In this document: positions 7,566-26,625 of the stretch, in pieces | Numbering within the stretch: position 1 is the first letter of the stretch | How the letters are laid out: each line of letters starts with the position of its first letter | Source: Gammaproteobacteria bacterium | GTDB taxonomy: Bacteria > Pseudomonadota > Gammaproteobacteria > SZUA-140 | Direction of reading: 5' to 3' | DNA: 41,627 bases | NCBI GenBank assembly: GCA_020845975.1 | Contig: JADLET010000003.1 | Location: forward strand, 1 to 41,627 | Notes under the pieces: model-generated | The model's database searches: none | Told to the model about the DNA's origin: nothing | What the model saw: only the letters and a program-made list of their open reading frames with translations | Program-made: the position numbers and the translations under genes

Positions 7566-8384
7566 ATGGCATCTGTTGATCAGTACATCAACGAACAACT
7601 TTCCCGCGGCAGGGCCTACTTCTCTCGGGAAGAAGCGTTGGATTCGCTTGGCCTGAGTTCGCAGGCATTCATTGCTGCCGCCACCCGATTGGCCAAGAAG
7701 CATCGGCTGGCATCCCCCCGTCGCGGTTTTTACTTAATCCTGCGACCCGAGGATCAGGTGATCGGGGCGCCGGACCCAGTACGCTGGATCGATCCTTTGA
7801 TGAAATACTTAGGCTTCGACTATCGAGTCTCCTTGTTGCGGGCGGCGGCTTTCCACGGTTCCTCACATCAGGCGGCCATGGTTTTTCAGGTGATCGCCCC
7901 GAAGCAGCTCCGGGCATTCGATATCGGCCGTCACCGACTCCAATTCATTTACCAGGCTCCATCGACCTTTTCCAAAACCAACGTGCCTGATTGGCTTTCA
8001 CAAATGAAAAGCGAGGCGGGGTTCGCCAAGGCCGCGGGTGTTGAGCTGACGCTCCTGGACTGCGCCCGCTACTTCCACAAGGTCGCCGGCATCAATGGCC
8101 TGGCCCAGATTGCCAAGGATCTCGGTGCGAATGCTGATCCGAACAAGCTGGCGAAAGTGGCTTCATCATACGAGAATTCTGCCGTTCGGCGACTCGGTTA
8201 CCTACTGGATCGTTCCGGTCATGCGCGTCAGGCCAAGGCCTTGGAGCCATTTGCAAGGAAGGCCAAATCGATGAAGCTCTTGGATCCTTCGGTCAAGCCA
8301 CTCATCGAATCTCTGTCTGAGCCGCATGAGAAAAATATCCAGTGGATGCTCGTGATCAATGAACCTGTGGAGATCGATTTTTGA
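7566..8384 (+). CDS. abiEi: AbiEi-family antitoxin/transcriptional repressor (pair 1)
   Basis: A 272-aa antitoxin of a type IV (AbiE) toxin-antitoxin/abortive infection system. An N-terminal winged-helix region (YFSREEALDSLGLSSQAFIA) followed by KKHRLASPRRGFYLILRP matches the AbiEi pattern of a wHTH plus short wing. The C-terminal antitoxin domain contains VELTLLDCARYFHKVAGING. It overlaps the toxin start by 4 nt (TTGA). No SD is visible: five G residues abut the ATG, and the promoter predicts an almost leaderless mRNA. Neighbouring ICE genes are on the opposite strand and more GC-rich, consistent with insertion as a defence cassette. Confidence 0.88.
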   Translation: MASVDQYINEQLSRGRAYFSREEALDSLGLSSQAFIAAATRLAKKHRLASPRRGFYLILRPEDQVIGAPDPVRWIDPLMKYLGFDYRVSLLRAAAFHGSSHQAAMVFQVIAPKQLRAFDIGRHRLQFIYQAPSTFSKTNVPDWLSQMKSEAGFAKAAGVELTLLDCARYFHKVAGINGLAQIAKDLGANADPNKLAKVASSYENSAVRRLGYLLDRSGHARQAKALEPFARKAKSMKLLDPSVKPLIESLSEPHEKNIQWMLVINEPVEIDF

Positions 8385-9247
8385 TTCCAGCCGCATTCCT
8401 TCAAGAGTGGAGTAACAGAACGCCCTGGCCGGATTCGAGACAGATCGAACAGGATCTCATCATCTGCCGTGCATTGTGTGACCTATTCAACTCACCTGCA
8501 CTCGCGGGAAAGATCGCCTTTCGCGGAGGCACGGCAATCAACAAACTGTTGTTCCAGACACCGCTACGCTATTCGGAAGATATCGATCTGGTTCAGATGC
8601 AGCCGGAGCCGATCGGCGCCACTGTCGATGCTATCCGTGATGTACTCGCCTGGCTGGGCCAGTGTAGTCGCGAACAAGCCGGGCACTCTATGCACCTGGT
8701 GTTCAAGTTCACTCCTGAAGCGGATCAGGAAGCAAAGCTGAAATTGAAAATCGAGATCAATACACGCGAGCATCAAAATTTGTTCGGCATCAGGTATTAC
8801 CCGTTCGAGGTGGACAGCCGTTGGCATCAGGCAAAGTCGAGCATCGCATCTTTTGTGCCTGAAGAACTCTTCGGTACCAAACTGCGAGCTTTGCTACAAC
8901 GGCGCAAGAGCCGCGATTTGTTCGATCTACACGAGGGGCTCAAACAACTCGTTATGGATCAGGAGAAGCTCATTGCTTGTTTTGACCATTACCTGATGTT
9001 GGAAGGTCAATCGATCAGTCGTGCCGTCGCTGAGCAGCGGATGTTGGAGAAGCTGGGTCGAAGTCTGACTGAGGACATTGCACCACTGTTACCTGCCGGC
9101 ATCCGATTCGATGATGACGATGCCATCGATGCTTTTGGCAAGGTGTGGACAGAACTGATTGCACGGATCAAAGGCGATCCCTGGAAGCTTACCGACAAGG
9201 TTGTCAAGGAGTTGCGCGAGAAGAAGTATCCCAACTTGTTGAGATAG
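8381..9247 (+). CDS. abiEii: AbiEii nucleotidyltransferase toxin (pair 1)
   Basis: A 288-aa toxin, DUF1814/AbiEii family. Members transfer nucleotides (shown for tRNA acceptor stems in mycobacterial MenT homologues). The DNA polymerase-beta motif is intact: FRGGTAINK (GGT at 49-51) followed by YSEDIDLV (E66, D67, D69 region). Later blocks FVPEELFGTKLRALLQRRKS and RDLFDLHEGL fit the conserved K/R and RDLFDL motifs. The start codon is TTG, placed as TTGA over the abiEi stop, which would keep toxin output low and coupled to the antitoxin. Confidence 0.9.
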   Translation: MIPAAFLQEWSNRTPWPDSRQIEQDLIICRALCDLFNSPALAGKIAFRGGTAINKLLFQTPLRYSEDIDLVQMQPEPIGATVDAIRDVLAWLGQCSREQAGHSMHLVFKFTPEADQEAKLKLKIEINTREHQNLFGIRYYPFEVDSRWHQAKSSIASFVPEELFGTKLRALLQRRKSRDLFDLHEGLKQLVMDQEKLIACFDHYLMLEGQSISRAVAEQRMLEKLGRSLTEDIAPLLPAGIRFDDDDAIDAFGKVWTELIARIKGDPWKLTDKVVKELREKKYPNLLR

Positions 9248-14643: not shown

Positions 14644-15585
14644 TTATAACTTTGGGATCCAACCTTGGATCTTTTCCAGAATGGCCTCGAACGGCGGTTG
14701 TCCACCGAAATAGAGCGTAGCAGTTGTCTGGTAGGCAAGGGCGTATCGCTGTCTCGTCGAGGCGTCCGACAATCGGAATGCCTCGTTCTCGGCAATGTTC
14801 AAGTTGTCGCCTGTCCTGAATCGCTGTTGCTTTCGCACGTGGTATTCCGGGGTGCCGATGAAGGCGGTTACCGCCGGATGGTCCAAGAGTTGACCGATGT
14901 CGTAATAGTGGCGCAGGAAGTTGGTCGGCATCTCTCCAGTTTCCTGCTCCCGGCGGAACTTGGTGGAGACGGTTTGAAGCTTCTCGACGAAGGTATAGCC
15001 AGGATGATAGCAGGGGACATCGATCGCCCGGTTATCCCGGATGCCGACCGCGCTTTCGCTGGCTTTGTCGAAGGCCCAGGAAGAAATCATTCGGGGCTGA
15101 TTCGGCTGGGTGTCATCGAAGCCGACTTCCAGCAGGATGCCTTCTTTCAGGCCGGCCGGTGTGTCGAAGGCGCTGCCGTAATGCAACCGGATGCCGCCAC
15201 TGCGGAATTTCTCGTCATCGAAGGCAGGATCGCGAGCGACCTCGATGATGCCCGCAATCCGAATCGTATCCGTAAGCCAATCGTAGAACTGCCGTCTGGA
15301 TTCAATTTGCCGTGGTTGCTTGGTTTGATTCGGAGCGGTGAACACTTCTAAGGGTGCGCATCTAGGGTCGATGCGGATATCGATATCTTCCAAGAAACGC
15401 TGGATGATGCCAAAGCCTTTGGAAAGCGTGGTGCCGCCCTTGAGTTCGAAGGCGAAGCCTTGCAGACCCAGACCATACAGGCTGTGCATGATCCAGTAAT
15501 CTTTTTCCACGATCGCCGGCAATAGCCCCCGTTCGTCGGCGACGATGCGGATCAGATCGGAAAAGTCGGATCGTTCGTGGAGCAG
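14644..15585 (-). CDS. abiEii: AbiEii nucleotidyltransferase toxin (pair 2), probable CTG start
   Basis: The conserved core is FELKGGTTLSKGFGII followed by FLEDIDIRI, the polymerase-beta GGT...ED.D motif, with VEKDYWIMHSLYGLGL at the N-terminus as in AbiEii/AbiGii toxins. The first ATG/GTG/TTG in frame is TTG at 15522, which cuts off the usual N-terminal helix. Codons upstream (LLHERSDFSDLIRIVADERG) look like genuine family sequence. A CTG at 15585, 4 nt after the AbiEi stop, is the likeliest start. C-terminal blocks YTFVEKLQTVSTKFRREQ and LRHYYDIGQLL fit the family. From CTG the product is 313 aa; from TTG 292 aa. Confidence 0.88.
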   Translation of the reverse strand: MLHERSDFSDLIRIVADERGLLPAIVEKDYWIMHSLYGLGLQGFAFELKGGTTLSKGFGIIQRFLEDIDIRIDPRCAPLEVFTAPNQTKQPRQIESRRQFYDWLTDTIRIAGIIEVARDPAFDDEKFRSGGIRLHYGSAFDTPAGLKEGILLEVGFDDTQPNQPRMISSWAFDKASESAVGIRDNRAIDVPCYHPGYTFVEKLQTVSTKFRREQETGEMPTNFLRHYYDIGQLLDHPAVTAFIGTPEYHVRKQQRFRTGDNLNIAENEAFRLSDASTRQRYALAYQTTATLYFGGQPPFEAILEKIQGWIPKL

Positions 15586-16171: not shown

Positions 16172-16193
16172 CGTCTTTCCTCGAGCTGGAAAA

Positions 16194-17933: not shown

Positions 17934-18767
17934 TCAAGGGGCGCGGTATCCCAGCCGCTGCAGGATGCCGTCCAGGGCCTCCAGGGAGTGGAAGGTGAAG
18001 GAAAGTTGGCCTCGGCCTCGAGTCGGTTCGTAGTCGATGCGGGTCTCAGCGCCAACCATCTCACCCATGTGTTGCTCCAGACGCACGATATCGGGATCGC
18101 GCCGGGTGTCGGCCGTAGTCAGCGACTCGGAGGTGTCCTTCCGGGCGCGGATACGCCGCTCGAGTGCCCGCACCGAGAGGTCCTTGCGTAGCACCTCCTC
18201 GGCCAACAGCTGTTGCATCGACTGCGGCAGTCCAGCCAACAGTTTGGCGTGTCCGAGGCTGAGCCGGTCCTGCGCCACCATCGCGAGCACCTCGGGGTCG
18301 AGTTTCAGGATCCGCAGCAGGTGACTGATAGCATAGCGCGAGCGACCCAGCGTACGCGCGGCCGCCTCATGGTTCAGCTGAAATTCTTCGATCAGGCGTG
18401 CGACACCTTGCGCCATCTCCACCGGATTGAGATCCTCGCGCTGCAGATTTTCCACCAGCGCGTGACTCAGGGCCGTGCGATCGTCCGTCGATCGCACCAG
18501 GGCAGGCACCCGTTGCAGTCCCGCTGCCTGGGCGGCGCGCCAGCGGCGCTCACCCGCGATGATCTCGTATCGTGGCGGTGCGGTGCCGGGCAGAGGGCGG
18601 ACCAGGATCGGCTGCAACACGCCTTCCGCCTGGATGGAGGCGGCCAGTTCCGCGAGCGGCTCGGATAGAAATTTGCGGCGCGGCTGATAGCGACCGGGGC
18701 ACAGCAGATCGATGTCGAGCTGCCGCAGGCGGCTGTCAAATTCTCCTGATCCAGCGTCGTGATGCAT
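17934..18767 (-). CDS. parB: ParB/Spo0J-like partition protein (stand-alone)
   Basis: 277 aa from MHHDAGSGEFDSRLRQLDID. Canonical ParB: box I region RYQPRRKFLSEPLAELAASI, box II IIAGERRWRAAQAAGLQRVP (the CTP-binding GERRxRA motif), the QREDLNPVEMAQG helix and the HTH HEAAARTLGRSRYAISHLLR. A C-terminal dimerisation tail ends LDGILQRLGYRAP. It is not next to parA; a separate ICE-type ParB is 5 kb away beside ParA. It starts 17 nt after the upstream 183-aa gene, so they are co-transcribed. It may bind a centromere on this element, or regulate it. Confidence 0.92.
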   Translation of the reverse strand: MHHDAGSGEFDSRLRQLDIDLLCPGRYQPRRKFLSEPLAELAASIQAEGVLQPILVRPLPGTAPPRYEIIAGERRWRAAQAAGLQRVPALVRSTDDRTALSHALVENLQREDLNPVEMAQGVARLIEEFQLNHEAAARTLGRSRYAISHLLRILKLDPEVLAMVAQDRLSLGHAKLLAGLPQSMQQLLAEEVLRKDLSVRALERRIRARKDTSESLTTADTRRDPDIVRLEQHMGEMVGAETRIDYEPTRGRGQLSFTFHSLEALDGILQRLGYRAP

Positions 18768-18784
18768 GATGGCCAGACCTTGGG

Positions 18785-19336
18785 TCAGCGCATCGAGGGC
18801 GTCGTTTGCGGTTCGTCGAGCGGCGTCGGGCTCGAATTCCCCAGTTGCTCGGAAGGGGCCTCCTCGTCGGTCAGCGGGAATGGTGATTGATTCAGGAGCT
18901 TGACGAAGGCGATCACGTCGAATGATCCTCGCGTGCTCAGACGCAGGCGTCGTCCCACATCGAGAACCGCCGTGTGCATCATAATCGTACCGCTGCCGTC
19001 CGCGGTGGGCTGGCACCACGGCCGCAGTCGCTTGTCGTTAACGAGTTCCATCAGCGCCCAGAACCGCCACAAGAAACTTGAAAATCGCTGCGAGTCCTTC
19101 ATGCTGTCTTTCACTGCGAACACCGCCCGGATCATGGGGTGGTCGCGGAAACTCAGATCGATAACTTCATCGTCATCTTCGATGATGACGTGGTTGAGCT
19201 CCGGATTGCGTACCGGAGTTCTCATGGATCCTGCCGCCATGGCCAGATCTATGTGGTAGGAGAAGTCATCGAGTTCGAACTCGATCGCCTGGTGGGGAAG
19301 TGTATGGGATTTAAAATCACCATTTCGATGTCTCAT
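18785..19336 (-). CDS. Unknown ICE protein, 183 aa
   Basis: Not recognised. It begins MRHRNGDFKSHTLPHQAIEF and is rich in acidic residues (VIIEDDDEVIDLSFRDHP). A region with helical character (SQRFSSFLWRFWALMELVND) is followed by GTIMMHTAVLDVGRRLRLST and a Pro/Thr-rich C-terminal tail. It sits between SSB and a ParB gene in the replication/partition block and is co-oriented with both, so a replication or partition accessory role is plausible only by context. Confidence 0.72.
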   Translation of the reverse strand: MRHRNGDFKSHTLPHQAIEFELDDFSYHIDLAMAAGSMRTPVRNPELNHVIIEDDDEVIDLSFRDHPMIRAVFAVKDSMKDSQRFSSFLWRFWALMELVNDKRLRPWCQPTADGSGTIMMHTAVLDVGRRLRLSTRGSFDVIAFVKLLNQSPFPLTDEEAPSEQLGNSSPTPLDEPQTTPSMR

Positions 19337-20386: not shown

Positions 20387-21208
20387 CTATTCGCTTTGAA
20401 CAGCGGCCGCATCGGCGGCGGGACGCGCGGAGAGGAAACTGTGTGATCGTGTCGTCTCACGAGTCTCAGGCCGGCGGATATCCGGGGCATGCCGCGCGCG
20501 CTGCGTGCCGTCCAGGATCGCCTGGGGCAGCGCGCCCATGGCGGCGGCGGCCGCCTGCGCGCGCGGGTTGTCCTGGCGCACATCGTTGCGGTCGATACCG
20601 ATGTACTTCCACAGGGTAGGCAGCAGAAAGGCGCGACGGATGCCGCGTCCGCCCCGGTTGAGCAACTGCTCCGCCGTGTCCCGTGTCAGCAAGCCGACGT
20701 GCCTTGCGGTGAGTACGGCGCAGACGAGTTCGTCGAAATCACCGACCAGGTAGGCGCCCATATAGCCGTAGGGGTTGGCGAATTGCAGGGGGACCCGCAC
20801 CGGCTTGAGGGAATGCGCGACCGCGATTTCCACGCCTCGGGTGGATTGGAGCAGCGTGTCCGTCTCGAGCTGCATGCGCCGGATCTCATGGCGTGCGGCT
20901 TCGAGGGCATCATGCAGTTGCAGCAGAAACCAGTCCGCATAGGGATCGTCCAGCATGGCCGCGACCCAGACGCGTTTCATGAGCATGCCGAATCGAACGA
21001 GGCCGATGATTCCGGGTTGATCGGGGGATTGTTTTCGGCCGTAGACCAGGCGTTGCGCCTGGCGTGTCTGGACAATCAGGCTCGCGCTGCCGCGCAAGGT
21101 GCCCGGTGTATCCGTTACCGTCTTGTAATCCACGGCGGGGTCCGCGTTGTCGGGTAGATCACGCGGGGTGATCGTGTCGGTATCCTGTCGGGTCATCGAT
21201 GAGTTCAT
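20387..21208 (-). CDS. PFL_4669/TIGR03761-family ICE protein (DUF1845)
   Basis: 273 aa. Family blocks: AQRLVYGRKQSPDQPGIIGL VRFGMLMKRVWVAAMLDDPY ADWFLLQLHDAL, then MGAYLVGDFDELVCAVLTAR HVGLL, then RRAFLLPTLWKYIGIDRNDV. These are characteristic of the PFL_4669 family in the maintenance block of MPF-G-type ICEs. Start ATG at 21208 with SD AAGGAGG. It lies 15 nt from the STY4528 stop, same operon. Function unknown. Confidence 0.92.
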   Translation of the reverse strand: MNSSMTRQDTDTITPRDLPDNADPAVDYKTVTDTPGTLRGSASLIVQTRQAQRLVYGRKQSPDQPGIIGLVRFGMLMKRVWVAAMLDDPYADWFLLQLHDALEAARHEIRRMQLETDTLLQSTRGVEIAVAHSLKPVRVPLQFANPYGYMGAYLVGDFDELVCAVLTARHVGLLTRDTAEQLLNRGGRGIRRAFLLPTLWKYIGIDRNDVRQDNPRAQAAAAAMGALPQAILDGTQRARHAPDIRRPETRETTRSHSFLSARPAADAAAVQSE

Positions 21209-21223: not shown

Positions 21224-22933
21224 TCAATTGCAGGTTTGGGGATCTCGATGTGCCACGTGGCACCTGTCTCCCTGACTGATGGCAGTGCCATCACATTCAG
21301 GTCTTGAAACGGGGTTTTTGAGGATCGGCGGACCGGTCGCTCGGGTGATGGCACTGCCATCACCGCTAATCGGAGTCTCGGGTAACGGCGCAGTCAGGGC
21401 AGGACCCCGTATTTTGAATATGGCCCGCATCTCGACCAGCGCCCGTTCACAGGCTTCAAGGCCGTTCCGCTTGTGAACGGGTGCGTGAGGATTCCGGGCC
21501 GGACTGATGGCAATGCCATCAGCTAATTGATCTCCGCGGAAGGTGATGGCAGTGCCATCACTTGGGGATGCCAGGGTGGTAACCTGCGCGGTTCTGCAGG
21601 GCATCGGTGAACTGATGGCAGTGCCATCAGCACCGTCATCGTCGAGAAGGGTGATGGCACTGCCATCACCCGGGGATTCCCGGTCTATATCGGATGAAAT
21701 CCCCGAGGGTCTCGTGGAACTGATGGCGGTGCCATCACTATTATCGCGATCGCGGAGAGATTGGGTTTCGGTTGGCTTCGGCTCGTGGCTTCGCTTTTCC
21801 CGCTGCTCCTGGACCCTGAGTCCCGGACTGGTCAATGCGAATTCTTCCTTGCGGGCGGCCCGGCACAGACCCGAGAGATAGCCGAGGGGGTTGTCGATGG
21901 GGGCGCCTCTGCGCCTGGCCGCTGTCATCCGGCCGGCCAGTTCATCGAGAATGTCCTGGCGCGTACTCTCCGGGGCATCACCCAGGCAGATCATGGCCGC
22001 TCGCCGTTCATTCGCCGTGAAGGATGCGGGCATTACGAGCGGGGGCGCTGAGGTTCCTTCGCGCGCGTGCGCACGGGTAGTGTTACCAACCCCTGTAGTA
22101 GTAGTTGTAGTTTTATTATTTATATAACTACTACTACTACTACTACTACTACTACATGTAGGCGACTTCAGTTTTTGAAGTGGCTCTGACTGCAAATACT
22201 GAAGCGGGTCATCCTCAGAGCCCGACTTCAAATTTTGAAGTTGGCGCGATGAGAAACCGAAGAATCGCGTTTCTTGACTCTCCAGCGTTCCGATCGCCTC
22301 CAGACGGCGATGCATCGGGTTGACGCGGGCAACCAGGTCATGTCCCGCGCGCAGATCTTCGCTGAGGGCTTCCATCGTCGCGGCGGCCACCCTGCGCACG
22401 TGGGGATGACCGTGGCTCAGCGCCTGTTCCAGAAACTGCATGTATTCCTGATCGAGATAGATCGTATCCAGCAGCGGCAGGGGCTCGTCATGGAGGGCGT
22501 AGATATTGCCTCGGTAACGACCCTGCGCATCGCGTACGCGCAGGCACAGCGACAGCCAGCGCGTCGCACGCAGAATCGCCATGGAGCGCGCCACCGTCGC
22601 CTCCGAGCCGACGTTGGCCGTCCTGGCGATCTGCTTATAGGTCGGGAATGCGGTCGGACGGGTCCCTGAGGCGGCGATCTTGATGACGCCCCAGATGCGC
22701 GTATCCACGGGCTGCAGGACGGGGTCCTGAAAGATCAGCCGCGGCATGGCGTCATGCCAATTCCCCAGGAATAACAAGCCGTCGTTCGTGGATCCGTTGC
22801 GAGGGCCGGCGGTGAGGAGTTGTTGTACGGAGGCCTGGATCAGGGCATCCAGGGCATGGGTTTCAGGTTTGATGGGTTCAGTGATTGGCTCCACCGGGTT
22901 GCCCGCCGCGTGATAGCTGCGCTCAGCCGGCAT
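21224..22933 (-). CDS. STY4528-family replication protein with a repeat-rich C-terminal half
   Basis: 569 aa. The N-terminal part (1-170) has the STY4528 signatures LLFLGNWHDAMPRLIFQDPV LQPVDTRIWGVIKIAA and a winged-helix TYKQIARTANVGSEATVARS MAILRATRWLSLCLRVRDAQ G. Around residue 230-265 three LQxLxS repeats occur, then a poly-Ser run of about 11 residues, YINNK and a Thr run. A conserved segment (MICLGDAPESTRQDILDELAG) follows, then a disordered tail with seven DG(T/S/I)AI(S/T) hexapeptides. Those hexapeptides are the translation of DNA palindromes, so the tail may be shaped by DNA function. The start overlaps DUF2857 by 11 nt. Family members are called pathogenicity-island replication proteins; the mechanism is unproven. 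Confidence 0.9.
   Translation of the reverse strand: MPAERSYHAAGNPVEPITEPIKPETHALDALIQASVQQLLTAGPRNGSTNDGLLFLGNWHDAMPRLIFQDPVLQPVDTRIWGVIKIAASGTRPTAFPTYKQIARTANVGSEATVARSMAILRATRWLSLCLRVRDAQGRYRGNIYALHDEPLPLLDTIYLDQEYMQFLEQALSHGHPHVRRVAAATMEALSEDLRAGHDLVARVNPMHRRLEAIGTLESQETRFFGFSSRQLQNLKSGSEDDPLQYLQSEPLQKLKSPTCSSSSSSSSSYINNKTTTTTTGVGNTTRAHAREGTSAPPLVMPASFTANERRAAMICLGDAPESTRQDILDELAGRMTAARRRGAPIDNPLGYLSGLCRAARKEEFALTSPGLRVQEQREKRSHEPKPTETQSLRDRDNSDGTAISSTRPSGISSDIDRESPGDGSAITLLDDDGADGTAISSPMPCRTAQVTTLASPSDGTAITFRGDQLADGIAISPARNPHAPVHKRNGLEACERALVEMRAIFKIRGPALTAPLPETPISGDGSAITRATGPPILKNPVSRPECDGTAISQGDRCHVAHRDPQTCN
21250..21737. repeat. Seven 17-bp palindromes inside the STY4528 gene
   Basis: TGATGGCANTGCCATCA occurs at 21277, 21346, 21505, 21544, 21613, 21652 and 21721 (first base of each). 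Six are perfect 8+1+8 palindromes; the seventh (21721) has a G:T-type change in the centre. Start-to-start spacing is 69, 159, 39, 69, 39, 69 bp. The intervening sequences are unrelated, so the spacing is not from tandem duplication. A further palindrome with the half-sites turned around (GTGCCACGTGGCAC, 21250-21263) precedes the first copy. All copies are in one reading frame. Candidate iterons, ParB/centromere sites or repressor operators. Confidence 0.9.
22094..22156. repeat. AT-rich hairpin flanked by GTA/ACT trinucleotide runs
   Basis: (ACT)9 at 22127-22153 faces GTAGTAGTAGTTGTAG (22095-22110). The arms can pair around an AT-only stretch (TTTTATTATTTATATAA, 22111-22127), the most AT-rich point in an otherwise GC-rich gene. 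In the protein it encodes Ser and Thr runs joined by YINNK. It could be a slippage-prone linker or a DNA unwinding element. Confidence 0.8.
22166..22240. repeat. Second palindrome set (CTTCAAATTTTGAAG type) inside STY4528
   Basis: CTTCAGTTTTTGAAG (22166-22180), CTGCAAATACTGAAG (22190-22204, degenerate) and CTTCAAATTTTGAAG (22226-22240); spacing 24 and 36 bp. They encode LQKLKS, LQYLQS and LQNLKS in the same frame. The set is different in sequence from the 17-bp set but likewise palindromic and in frame. Confidence 0.75.
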
Positions 22934-23522
22934 GACACGGTGAGACCGAGGGCGTGTGTTCGGGAGGATCGTTGTTGATCAGGCCGGCATTCTCCCAGGA
23001 CTGTACCAACGCCCATGCCGTGTTCAATGGGATGCCGGTCGACTGCCCGATACGAAGGAAACGCTGTTCCAGGGGGAGTTCCTCGGTGTCTTTCCAGACC
23101 TGCCACACCGCCGCTTCTTCATTTTCGGTGGGCGCCAGAGGTCGACCCACCCCGGTACCGTTCAGGCCCAGAAGCTTGCGGCGTGCCGCATACTCTGCGT
23201 TGGTCATGCCGAAGAACGCCCGCATCATGGCCAGTGGTCCGCGCAGACGGATGAGCTCGTCTTGCAGACCTTCATGGCGTTTGTTGCGATCCATGTGGTC
23301 CATGACGCGATCAAAACAGACCGGGTCCACCGCGATGTGCAGGACGTGGGTGCGCACCTGACTGAGGTGGTGACGATCGCCCAGCGTGAGTCGTTCCAGG
23401 CGCGCGATCTGATCCAGACGAAATCCCAATTCCAGGATGGCGTGGAGATCCCCCTCGGCGAGAGACTCCGCGGCATAGCGCAAGGCGTGGAAGATCAGTT
23501 CTGCATGCGTCGTCTTGGACAC
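22923..23522 (-). CDS. DUF2857-family ICE protein
   Basis: 199 aa from GTG (MSKTTHAELIFHALRYAAES), SD GGGAG at 7-8 nt. Helical throughout, with AILELGFRLDQIARLERLTL GD and MMRAFFGMTNAEYAARRKLL GLNGTGVGRPL, plus an HTH-like C-terminal part (EQRFLRIGQSTGIPLNTAWA LVQSWENAGLI). DUF2857 proteins lie between ParB and STY4528 in SPI-7/PFGI-1-like ICEs, exactly as here. Probably a DNA-binding regulator or replication accessory; not established. Confidence 0.88.
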   Translation of the reverse strand: MSKTTHAELIFHALRYAAESLAEGDLHAILELGFRLDQIARLERLTLGDRHHLSQVRTHVLHIAVDPVCFDRVMDHMDRNKRHEGLQDELIRLRGPLAMMRAFFGMTNAEYAARRKLLGLNGTGVGRPLAPTENEEAAVWQVWKDTEELPLEQRFLRIGQSTGIPLNTAWALVQSWENAGLINNDPPEHTPSVSPCHAG

Positions 23523-23538
23523 GGTTGGTCTCCCTTGT

Positions 23539-25089
23539 CTAGCTCGCCGCATTCCTGCGCCACAAACCCGAGTCCTCCTCGTTATCGAACGATCGCCTGA
23601 GCTGGCGGCAGGTCTGTGCCAATGCCAGCAGGTCATCGATGGTGGAGTCGGGGATCAGGGGATTGCTGATCAGTTCATAGCCCAGCGCCTTCCAATCGGG
23701 TTCGCCCACCAGGTTCAGCGCCTTGGTGTCATTTCCCTCAAGGATCAGCGTGCGCAGCACTACTTCGGTCGGTGCGGCCTCCAATCGCTCGGGATGTACC
23801 GCCTCCTCGGACAGGCTCAGGAGCAACCACCAGATCCACTGCCGCGCGAGTTGCTGCAGGGCGTCCGCTTGGCCGGCGACGGGGATGATGGGGTTGTGAG
23901 GAAGATCGATCAGAAAGCCCATTCCAAGATGACCGGCGGTGAGGAGGCAGTCCTCCAGATCATGTCGCTGGGCGATCTTCAGGGCGAGGACGTAACAGCG
24001 ACTGCGCAGAGATTTGAGATCACTCGGTCCTTCATGGGGTGGTCGGGCGCTGCTCGTGGTTTCACGTGTGTATCGATCGGGTTGCCCCGGATCGGCATGT
24101 AGGGAGGGTGTTCGCGAATCCGGTACGACAGCCGATGGGGGAGGGGTATCTGCTGGCGGCTTCTTATGGGTTGCTGTGTTCTCATTCCCCACGGTCGCGC
24201 CCTCAGAGCTGTGCTCCTCGATTCCAGCCACCAGTCGGGTATCGATTTCCAGACGAACATGTTTGAGGGGGAGCTGGAGCGACTCCGCGAGGCGGGTTTC
24301 CAGCGCCTGCTGCACCGTATCGAGATCCCAAGCGGGGTCATCGTGGTCGGCAAATTCGTCACTGAACAGGGCCGAGAATCGTTCCGAGACCTGGCCCTGC
24401 TCTGTCCAGAGATCCCGGCAGGCGGTCTCCAAACGGCGGATCCGTCGTATTTGCGGTGCACCCATCCCGCCGCGCAGGGCCGCCGGTATGAGCGGCAGCA
24501 GAACATCCACGGCATACTCCATGCGGGAGATCATGCTCTGATCCAGCCCATAACCGCGTTCTTTCAAGGCCTCGACCAATTGGCGTTGGGAAAACTTTTC
24601 CTGTCCTTCTGATTCCAGGACATCGCGCAGCTCACGCACACCCAGGGCCTTGTCGATGAAGGTCAGCGCTCCGCGCTTGTCGTTCTCGATCAAGTGTGCC
24701 GTGAGCACATGGGATTCAGAGACCCAGGGTCGGAACAGGCAGTGGATACGATAGAAGCAAGAGTCTCGGGTTTCCGTCCACAGTTCATGGAGGATCTGCA
24801 GGCGGGTATTGCCGCCGGACTCTACCGTGTAGAGCTCATCGCCCGGCCGGCGTGTGACGGTCAACGGGTTGTTGAGGCCACCCTGGGCACGGATCGATGC
24901 CCTGATCTCGTCATAGAGCGGATTACGTTCCTTGCGGGGGTTGCGATCGTAGGTCTTGATCCGGTCGATCTCCAACAGCATCTGGGTCGTGGTGAGCGGG
25001 TCCGCGGCCGGCAGCGCGCGACTTTGTCCGAAGTGCCCCTCGCGCAACATTCCCTGAATCTGTTCACTGGAAGGGTGTTTCCGTGTCAT
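23539..25089 (-). CDS. parB: ICE-type ParB (TIGR03764-like), 516 aa
   Basis: The N-terminal part has a ParB/sulfiredoxin-like domain: EIDRIKTYDRNPRKERNPLY, RASIRAQGGLNNPLTVTRRP, and VESGGNTRLQILHELWTETR in place of the usual GERR box. The helical part (SQRQLVEALKERGYGLDQSM ISRMEYAVDVLLPLIPAALR) provides the HTH. The C-terminal half is a long family-specific extension. It overlaps parA by 4 nt. Length and order match the PFGI-1-type ICE partition pair. About 100 residues (290-390) are low complexity. Confidence 0.93.
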   Translation of the reverse strand: MTRKHPSSEQIQGMLREGHFGQSRALPAADPLTTTQMLLEIDRIKTYDRNPRKERNPLYDEIRASIRAQGGLNNPLTVTRRPGDELYTVESGGNTRLQILHELWTETRDSCFYRIHCLFRPWVSESHVLTAHLIENDKRGALTFIDKALGVRELRDVLESEGQEKFSQRQLVEALKERGYGLDQSMISRMEYAVDVLLPLIPAALRGGMGAPQIRRIRRLETACRDLWTEQGQVSERFSALFSDEFADHDDPAWDLDTVQQALETRLAESLQLPLKHVRLEIDTRLVAGIEEHSSEGATVGNENTATHKKPPADTPPPSAVVPDSRTPSLHADPGQPDRYTRETTSSARPPHEGPSDLKSLRSRCYVLALKIAQRHDLEDCLLTAGHLGMGFLIDLPHNPIIPVAGQADALQQLARQWIWWLLLSLSEEAVHPERLEAAPTEVVLRTLILEGNDTKALNLVGEPDWKALGYELISNPLIPDSTIDDLLALAQTCRQLRRSFDNEEDSGLWRRNAAS

Positions 25090-25934
25090 TCGCCGGATTC
25101 CTCAGTGAGGGGCAGGTCTTCTAAGACCAATGTCGTGTCGTAAAGGTGAGGAAAGAGATCGTGGACGAGGGTCAGCATGGCCACACGGGCGCTTTGCGTC
25201 GGTCCCGAGCGCTGTGTTTCCCAGCGATGCACCGGGACACGTGCTGTGGCTGCTTCCCGGTAGGCGACCGTGTTGGGGATGACGACATCCAGTATGGTGA
25301 TGGCTCCCTTGCTCGGCCCGTAGGCTTCCTTGCGCAGTTCCTGTGCTATGCGGCGTGCATCGATGGTGCGATCCATGCGATAGATGAGGCCGCGCAAAGG
25401 TCCGAGGGGTGCACCCAGATAGGCCATCGGACGCAGGCGGTCAAGCATCTGGACGGTGCCGCGTGCGAATTCTCGCGCCGAGAGAATCTCCGGGGGAATC
25501 GGCGAGACGAGTAGGTCCGCGGCCAGGACCGCGGCATCCTGCAGCGGACCGACCGCGCCCTGGGTATCGATCAGGATGACGTCGTAGCGGGCATAGAATT
25601 GCGCCAGCAGATGTTTCAAGCGCACACGCCCATCAGGTGTGTGGAGGATCCAATTCTGCAGCATGCCTTCGGGGTCGTCCGACACGATAATGTCCAAGCG
25701 CGGCAAGTTGGTCCGGCTGATGACGCCATCGACCCTCGCCTCCGTGATCAATGCGGAAAGACCTCGGTCGGCACGACGCTCCAGGGGGAAGTAGCTCGAC
25801 AGGGTAGGTTGCACGTCCGCATCGATCAGCAGCACTCGCTGTCCGAGGTCCGATAACAGACCGCCCAGGTTTGCAGTCAATGTCGTCTTGCCAACTCCTC
25901 CTTTGGTGCTGGTCACTGTTACTTTGATGGCCAT
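25086..25934 (-). CDS. parA: ParA/Soj-like partition ATPase
   Basis: 282 aa from MAIKVTVTSTKGGVGKTTLT, with the deviant Walker A KGGVGKTT (11-18) and Walker A' LLIDADVQPTLSSYF. The DxxG-type switch VILIDTQGAVGPLQDAAVLA and an adaptor-like C-terminus complete the fold. An upstream extension of 17 residues is rejected for lack of homology. It follows flhC by 22 nt, so the regulatory genes and partition genes may share a transcript. Confidence 0.94.
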   Translation of the reverse strand: MAIKVTVTSTKGGVGKTTLTANLGGLLSDLGQRVLLIDADVQPTLSSYFPLERRADRGLSALITEARVDGVISRTNLPRLDIIVSDDPEGMLQNWILHTPDGRVRLKHLLAQFYARYDVILIDTQGAVGPLQDAAVLAADLLVSPIPPEILSAREFARGTVQMLDRLRPMAYLGAPLGPLRGLIYRMDRTIDARRIAQELRKEAYGPSKGAITILDVVIPNTVAYREAATARVPVHRWETQRSGPTQSARVAMLTLVHDLFPHLYDTTLVLEDLPLTEESGE

Positions 25935-25956
25935 GGTATTGCTCCGGCTGATGCAG

Positions 25957-26625
25957 TCATTGTTGTGCCTTCCCGTTTGACGCATTCGTGCATCGGTTAC
26001 ATTGAATGCGGCGACGCCCCTTGGTTTGTGGATTCAATGGCGAGCCGCACTGATGACACCGGTACCGCAGATAGAGACGGCAACCCGGGCAGGTATTCCT
26101 GCGTGAATCGACGGGGTCGAGAAAGTCGTGTGAGCAGAAACCACAGGTTCGTTCTTCCCAGAGATTCATCGCAGGAAGACGCGTGACGAATACCGCGCGC
26201 GTGAAGTCCAGCAGCGGTTCGCGAACCAGACACGTATAAATCTCAAACACATCGATCAATACTCGCGCGAGGCTTCGGCCGTTATTCTCCAGTTTGCGAT
26301 AGAGCCGCCAGATAAACGTGGCCTGCAGCATGCGCAGATCATGTTCTCGGTACCACGTATCCGAGAATGGCATTTGTCCGGGAGGCGATGTCGTACCCAG
26401 CATCTGTCGGTACAATCGATTGATCGGCGCCTTGTCGAGACCTGTCAGCTGACAAACCAGACCGGCACGGGCGCCGAGACGTACCAGATGTATCGCTTCC
26501 TTGATTTTTATCGCATGCTGGCACAGATCGACATCACAGTGAGGGTATCTGTGGCTGTTGACGCATGGAAAATTGGACGGGATGAACAAATGAGAGCAGA
26601 GATTTGAATTCATAGGCATGACCAT
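25957..26625 (-). CDS. flhC: FlhC-like transcriptional activator (SetC-type) with extra Cys pairs
   Basis: 222 aa. FlhC blocks: IKIKEAIHLVRLGARAGLVC QLTGL, DTWYREHDLRMLQATFIWRL YRKL, VLIDVFEIYTCLV, and the Zn-binding CGFCSHDF...NTCPGC (C161, C164, C179, C182). Two further CxxC pairs (C190/C193 and C209/C212) form a second putative zinc site not found in the 192-aa E. coli FlhC as I know it. The N-terminal about 35 residues also contain three Cys and are not family-like; a later start is possible. It lies 3 nt after flhD. In SXT, the FlhCD relatives SetC/SetD activate transfer and excision. Confidence 0.9.
   Translation of the reverse strand: MVMPMNSNLCSHLFIPSNFPCVNSHRYPHCDVDLCQHAIKIKEAIHLVRLGARAGLVCQLTGLDKAPINRLYRQMLGTTSPPGQMPFSDTWYREHDLRMLQATFIWRLYRKLENNGRSLARVLIDVFEIYTCLVREPLLDFTRAVFVTRLPAMNLWEERTCGFCSHDFLDPVDSRRNTCPGCRLYLRYRCHQCGSPLNPQTKGRRRIQCNRCTNASNGKAQQ

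Follow-up and report, generated by a model that had tools for sequence, protein, structure and literature searches.

Does the palindrome array inside a replication gene of this element act as an origin of replication or as a centromere? We analyzed a 41,627-nucleotide stretch of DNA (the window), in which a first-pass annotation had described seven 17-bp palindromes, spaced 69, 159, 39, 69, 39, and 69 bp apart and all in one reading frame of a gene for a replication-family protein, and had proposed that they form an intragenic origin like that of phage λ O, with a centromere as the alternative. The number, spacing, and common frame of these palindromes were confirmed, with six exact copies and one carrying a mismatch, and the gene is the minus-strand STY4528-family gene at 21224–22933. 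The best reading of our results is that origin and centromere are two functions on two separate sets of sites. With a probability that we put at roughly 0.8, the seven palindromes (set A) are a centromere for the ParB encoded at 23539–25089, translated as the tail of STY4528, and a second palindrome set (set B) together with an AT-rich hairpin is a λ-O-like intragenic origin.

Gene content of the locus

Profile searches identified the STY4528-family initiator gene (21224–22933, minus strand; 569 amino acids; NF040582, 224 bits, cut-off 130) and, upstream of it in the same direction, genes for a DUF2857 protein (22923–23636, minus strand; PF11198, 143.8 bits, cut-off 36.8), a ParB that we propose as the binder of set A (23539–25089, minus strand; 516 amino acids; TIGR03764, 290.8 bits, cut-off 143.75), and a ParA-type ATPase (25086–25985, minus strand; Pfam AAA_31, 82.7 bits, cut-off 27), whose NCBIfam ParA_partition score was below the cut-off of that profile. 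Downstream of STY4528, directly after the set A array, lies a gene for a PFL_4669/AcaB-like protein (20387–21208, minus strand; TIGR03761, 196.7 bits, cut-off 110.7; PF08900). The window has the hallmark of a ParABS system, a ParA-type ATPase and a ParB encoded together and both over their domain cut-offs, and also has the core order ParB-DUF2857-STY4528-PFL_4669 of pKLC102/PFGI-1-type ICEs, and the locus is best read as the partition-and-replication core of such an ICE. A second, Noc-like ParB is encoded at 17934–19019 (minus strand; TIGR00180, 180 bits, cut-off 58.45), and the window contains no match to the consensus DnaA box TTWTNCACA. An FlhC-like protein (PF05280; 25957–26625), which we take to resemble the AcaC-type regulators of IncC, adjoins ParA, and the same ICE carries an AbiEi/AbiEii pair and a second AbiEii-type gene (7566–9247 and 14644–15522).

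The STY4528 family was present in 8 of 55 relatives and in 22 of 398 genomes of the phylum; in three selected groups, 77 of 298, 40 of 250, and 19 of 198 genomes had it. We divide the protein of the window into a winged-helix domain, a disordered linker whose DNA holds set B and the AT-rich stretch, a small C-terminal helical domain, and a tail encoded by set A. In the predicted structure, residues 78–147 form helices and a hairpin, pLDDT is below 50 at 197–296, and the C-terminal helices have modest confidence. A fold search gave nothing below an E-value of 0.4, the best match being 5ubd (RctB N-domain; E 0.41).

Constraint on the DNA of the STY4528 gene

Set A comprises six exact copies of the 17-bp palindrome TGATGGCANTGCCATCA (21277–21293, 21346–21362, 21505–21521, 21544–21560, 21613–21629, and 21652–21668 for sites 1–6) and one copy with a single mismatch (site 7, 21721–21737). 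With up to three mismatches allowed, the window holds 8 matches compared to 0.33 expected, a number reached in 0 of 100 shuffles; the eighth, with 3 mismatches, lies at 9112, away from the STY4528 array. All seven sites are read in the same frame of minus-strand STY4528 and encode D-G-[T/S/I]-A-I. Among the six exact sites, the sole variable base (N) alters the amino acid and the synonymous positions are fixed; the one further change, at site 7, is synonymous. The first-pass annotation had argued, from third codon bases that complete the palindrome, that the DNA, not the peptide, is under selection. That argument was borne out. The gene contains seven perfect 17-bp palindromes, six from set A and one from set B, whereas synonymous recoding with local codon usage left a mean of 0.043 and a maximum of 1, with seven reached in 0 of 400 recodings. 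Because the palindromes and the AT-rich peak described below are both unreached by synonymous recoding, we conclude that the STY4528 DNA itself is constrained in both of these places.

Least probable of the alternatives that we considered is that the array is a selected DGxAI peptide repeat or a mobile palindrome useless to the element. Its peptide is indeed shared and kept in one frame, and further copies of the palindrome exist in the genome outside this locus, but the result of the recodings, the palindromes that are intergenic in other elements, and the sequences that vary with symmetry kept and in step with ParB residues speak against it. The array nevertheless appears to serve as coding sequence too. 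In-frame spacings are all divisible by three, both in the window (69, 159, 39, 69, 39, and 69) and in two close relatives (36, 69, and 36), and the first out-of-frame ones (70 and 250) are found past the stop, an arrangement suggesting that the C-terminal tail of STY4528 is translated through set A. Helical phasing was rejected as an account of these distances, as 39, 69, and 159 bp have no simple common multiple of 10.5 by hand reckoning.

Placement of set A in related elements

The two close relatives (L047 and L048; about 69% protein identity) have the same palindrome in frame, at spacings of 36, 69, and 36 bp, except for a last site that falls outside the frame; the L048 frame stops at the TGA that opens the last palindrome, as read from the coordinates of its twin locus L016. 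The first-pass annotation had held that free synonymous variation in homologues would refute a DNA function. The homologues spoke against this refutation: in L047 and L048 one set A site is broken by a synonymous GGC to GGT change and the others are intact. Elements of the Halopseudomonas type pointed the same way, with the identical palindrome in intergenic arrays of 7, 4, and 3 copies in Pseudomonas saudimassiliensis, Halopseudomonas bauzanensis, and Candidatus Pseudomonas excrementavium, respectively, where the copies are 51 bp apart and downstream of PFL_4669 and STY4528 is only 33% identical. The near-identical elements L085, L088, and L089 carry 7, 3, and 4 copies of a 51-bp set A unit, indicating that copy number changes readily.

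We then took the commonest perfect set A palindrome of each element as its call in 153 elements: the window, 16 of 20 related stretches, 3 more stretches, 13 elements from plasmids or viral contigs, and 120 further elements. A call was obtained in 126 and none in 27. Called arrays lie downstream of the STY4528 frame in 121 of the 126, fully within it in 3, and partly within it in 2, and two of the latter five (L051 and L053) are doubtful calls; a position inside the initiator ORF, as in the window, is rare. Arrays can also follow PFL_4669, far from STY4528, and reach at least 20 copies. Spacings vary widely across relatives, commonly between 36 and 58 bp, and the suggestion that spacing itself is selected was not borne out. 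The 57-bp repeats of pKLC102, in the STY4528–PFL_4669 interval, contain palindromes of the set A form GTG-NNNN-CANTG-NNNN-CAC with other arms. Single exact palindromes were found in 17 viral-contig stretches, one in each. Three family genomes also have a single palindrome: L108 (at 4892) and L109 (at 7954) have it near the start of what we read as similar ATPase-like genes, a possible operator use, and L110 has it within a long helicase-like frame.

Covariation of set A with ParB

We scored every palindrome position against 1213 alignment columns drawn from ParB, STY4528, DUF2857, and PFL_4669, with rows more than 85% alike down-weighted to an effective n of 67.9; three groups are over-represented in the sample, which also contains near-duplicates, and covariation in it partly follows clades. 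For the outer bases, the top column was ParB R169 (NMI 0.81, next 0.57), where R accompanies TG in 90 of 92 cases and S accompanies CT or CG in 27 of 27. For N1, it was ParB Q184 (NMI 0.63, next 0.45), with Q paired with A in 80 of 83 cases and with another base in 2. For N3, scored as T or not, it was ParB R189 (NMI 0.60, next 0.34, rising to 0.96, next 0.37, in arrays of at least three copies); residue 189 with T at N3 is K 16 times, Q once, and never R, and K also occurs with other bases 7 times. The best columns for N4 were ParB R215, A211, and R206, and those for the first core base were ParB A211 and Q213, the top for this base shifting to ParB L490, outside the HTH, in arrays of at least three copies. 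Only for N2, which is nearly invariant, was the top column in PFL_4669. A tree-aware test of the first three ParB–set A pairs, on a tree of DUF2857 plus PFL_4669, gave LR values of 46.7, 83.9, and 45.9 with 5–18 parsimony changes per trait, compared to 3.0–23.2 for seven cross-pair controls.

In a low-confidence ParB model (mean pLDDT 47), the covarying residues R169, Q184, R189, and A211–R215 are placed at the N-terminal ends of helices 168–177, 184–200, and 211–230 or close to them. A search with the ParB profile against solved structures returned no ParB; its matches were all arginine repressors, with E-values no better than 0.015, over residues of about 149–190. The specificity of ParB/Noc proteins is known to sit in such a stretch (PMC7383237), with few specificity residues spread over the recognition helix and the helix that follows, much as is predicted here; unlike the ParB/Noc of Jalal et al. 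2020, the ParB of the window belongs to family TIGR03764, with many natural specificities. Set A is best read as the centromere of this ParB, with binding predicted from the matched residues and bases. A literature search found no report of parS or ParB binding for the pKLC102/PFGI-1-type ICE family.

These results bear on three other accounts of set A. Set A as STY4528 iterons was our own first reading, taken from the pKLC102 repeats, which the original pKLC102 paper reportedly describes as oriV, and it was dropped once the column scan favored ParB. An oriV in the STY4528–PFL_4669 interval is already known as a prediction for PFGI-1 (about 1,100 bp with two palindrome types; PMC2647930) and a postulate for pKLC102 (PMC7685784). 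Such sequence-based proposals, and the position of tandem arrays beside an initiator gene, lend some weight to the idea that set A is bound by STY4528 and that the whole interval is the origin, and when N3 is scored as four states STY4528 E111 ranks first and ParB R189 fourth. However, the E111 ranking arises from the CT-ATCC clade, in which both proteins differ; R189 is again top with at least three copies, and E111 fails to pair with N1 or N3 once the tree is taken into account (LR 4.7 and 3.0). Residue 111 instead follows set B with no exception, set A is followed by ParB residues, and arrays that lie after PFL_4669 are far from STY4528. We regard this account as unlikely.

More improbable again is an operator array of the adjacent PFL_4669 (AcaB-like) protein: the array abuts the PFL_4669 gene, on either side, and the Pfam family is named as a transcriptional regulator, but the one position at which a PFL_4669 column ranked first, N2, hardly varies, and none did so at N1, N3, or N4, at the outer bases, or at the first core base. 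The third account has ParB bind set A mainly as a KorB-like repressor or silencer. Sites at the end of the operon, beside PFL_4669, and the two relatives with a site near an unrelated gene start would fit such a role; the co-encoded ParA–ParB pair and arrays of at least 20 copies are more centromere-like, and we consider a mainly repressive role very unlikely.

Set B and the AT-rich hairpin

Evidence for a putative separate origin comes from the linker codons of STY4528. The second palindrome set described by the first-pass annotation is present, with sites at 22165–22181 and 22225–22241 and an imperfect one at 22189–22205, read from the sequence, whose counterpart in L047 and L048 is an intact site; set B spacings in these relatives are 36 and 24. 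Set B adjoins a hairpin at 22094–22156, a putative unwinding element, which folds as DNA at −14.2 kcal/mol (z −3.93). AT content here peaks at 0.75 in 60 bp compared to 0.55 after synonymous recoding, and the observed peak was reached in 0 of 400 recodings. The hairpin had been called the clearest AT-rich one in the window; it is real, but it shares its AT content of 0.75 with stretches at 16190 and 9868 and hence is not the single most AT-rich place. The window is one of 16 elements, out of 26, with an AT excess over synonymous recoding; the other 10 had none. Linker DNA contained at least two alike palindromes in 113 of 153 elements and at least three in 63 of 153, compared to recoded means of 1.6 and 0.0, respectively, over 20 rounds. 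Set B palindromes are of the AGTTCG type in many elements and have different arms in others. In the STY4528 linker of L053 (G006:C99), three TGTCCACAGTGTGGACA sites lie 87 bp apart, set A-like in form and in the place of set B.

Across 112 elements, the second base of set B is matched by STY4528 residue 111 without exception: R, K, or N occurs with G (90 of 90) and H or E with C (22 of 22). For the sixth base, residue 112 pairs E with G (76 cases) and K with C (16 of 16, among them the distant elements L059 and L112), and A occurs with T (9) or A (4). Residues 111 and 112 were both top of 1210 columns for these set B bases, and both start helix 111–123 of the predicted winged helix. On the tree, the STY4528–set B pairs gave LR values of 17.2–26.0 with only 2–5 changes, a range that overlaps the controls. 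Clade effects are signalled by set B positions 1, 5, and 7, which point to other proteins: for positions 1 and 5 the best column outside the linker was in DUF2857, and position 7 was high in several proteins. In the window, where residues 111 and 112 are E and A, the site at 22165–22181 is a putative STY4528-binding iteron, and set B with the adjacent hairpin is best read as a putative λ-O-like intragenic origin. On this reading, each of the two functions proposed at the outset fits one stretch: the origin fits set B and the hairpin, which covary with STY4528, better than the seven palindromes, and the centromere fits those seven, which covary with the ParB at 23539–25089. Of the two ParBs encoded in the window, this is the one that the covariation analysis covered and to which the evidence points.

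A model for the two site sets

In the model that we favor, each 17-bp set A site would bind a dimer of the ICE ParB (23539–25089), ParB would cluster on the array, and ParA would segregate the excised circle. The STY4528 winged helix, as dimers, would load on set B within its own linker codons, and the origin would open at the hairpin beside it, as in λ O. Most relatives would have their centromere directly behind either the initiator gene or PFL_4669; the initiator frame of this lineage would continue through it, so that the repeats would also encode a C-terminal tail. The model is inferred from four things observed: the sites, the constraint on their DNA, the gene order, and the covariation.

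Phage λ O has an N-terminal DNA-binding domain, with iterons and an AT-rich region in its own linker codons. The window resembles it in having an initiator with putative sites and an AT-rich region in its own linker codons, and differs in that the sites are palindromic, the element is an ICE and not a phage, and a close fold match was not found. The F plasmid sopC is a ParABS centromere array. Like sopC and the parS of IncC, set A consists of tandem or repeated palindromes read, here putatively, by an element-encoded ParB; unlike in those systems, the end of an initiator gene reads in frame through the array, and both the ParB family and the site sequence differ. IncC parS copies, too, are partly located within ORFs, and SGI1 mimics them (PMC10954446); ParB binding is shown for IncC, whereas here it is inferred. 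Another close comparison is with pKLC102/PFGI-1/PAPI-1-type ICEs, which share the order ParB-DUF2857-STY4528-array-PFL_4669. pKLC102 has 57-bp repeats with GTG-NNNN-CACTG-NNNN-CAC palindromes and set B in its STY4528 gene, and PFGI-1 has both palindrome types, described as one oriV (PMC2647930). The window differs from this type in having set A inside the STY4528 frame, and our covariation analysis differs from the earlier description in giving set A to ParB, so that the initiator keeps set B alone.

If this model is correct, the most familiar repeats of a very common family of ICEs would be reassigned from origin to centromere, and the origin would move into the initiator gene. One stretch of DNA would be both protein-coding sequence and centromere, beside an origin in the same gene, tying replication, segregation, and expression together. 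Natural ParB and initiator variants with matched sites would also make a residue-to-base code directly testable.

Sites shared with resident islands

Contigs C74 and C162 of the same genome also carry the exact set A palindrome, in three copies each, and C151 carries a single copy. The stretches concerned (L005 on C74, L006 on C151, and L007 on C162) are island-like, with HTH replication-type and integrase-like genes, partly by our own reading; as far as these contig fragments extend, they showed no STY4528 over the cut-off, no PFL_4669, and no ParA or ParB of the window kind. A further palindrome with a CACGTG core, GTGCCACGTGGCAC, is found exactly three times in the genome: in the window (21250–21263), on C74 (L005, 783–796), and on C151 (L006, 2845–2858). 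It is also present in L047 and L048, once near the second ParB in L047, and may be the site of the Noc-like ParB and hence a possible second partition site.

SGI1 carries mimics of IncC parS (PMC10954446), which makes partition mimicry by islands a natural reading. By this analogy, the set A sites on the islands and the GTGCCACGTGGCAC copies on C74 and C151 suggest SGI1-like mimicry, which would extend that of SGI1 and IncC to another ICE family. Taken at its broadest, our proposal is that the "oriV" arrays found in pKLC102/PFGI-1-type ICEs and in plasmids related to them serve as centromeres for ParB and follow a readable residue-to-base code, that the true origin lies inside the initiator gene, that the centromere has here been absorbed into the initiator frame, and that the resident islands C74 and C151 carry sites for both ICE ParBs and ride or disturb partition; for this wider claim, taken as a whole, we see the chances as about even. 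C74 also carries AbiE-type and type I restriction-like genes, partly by our own reading.
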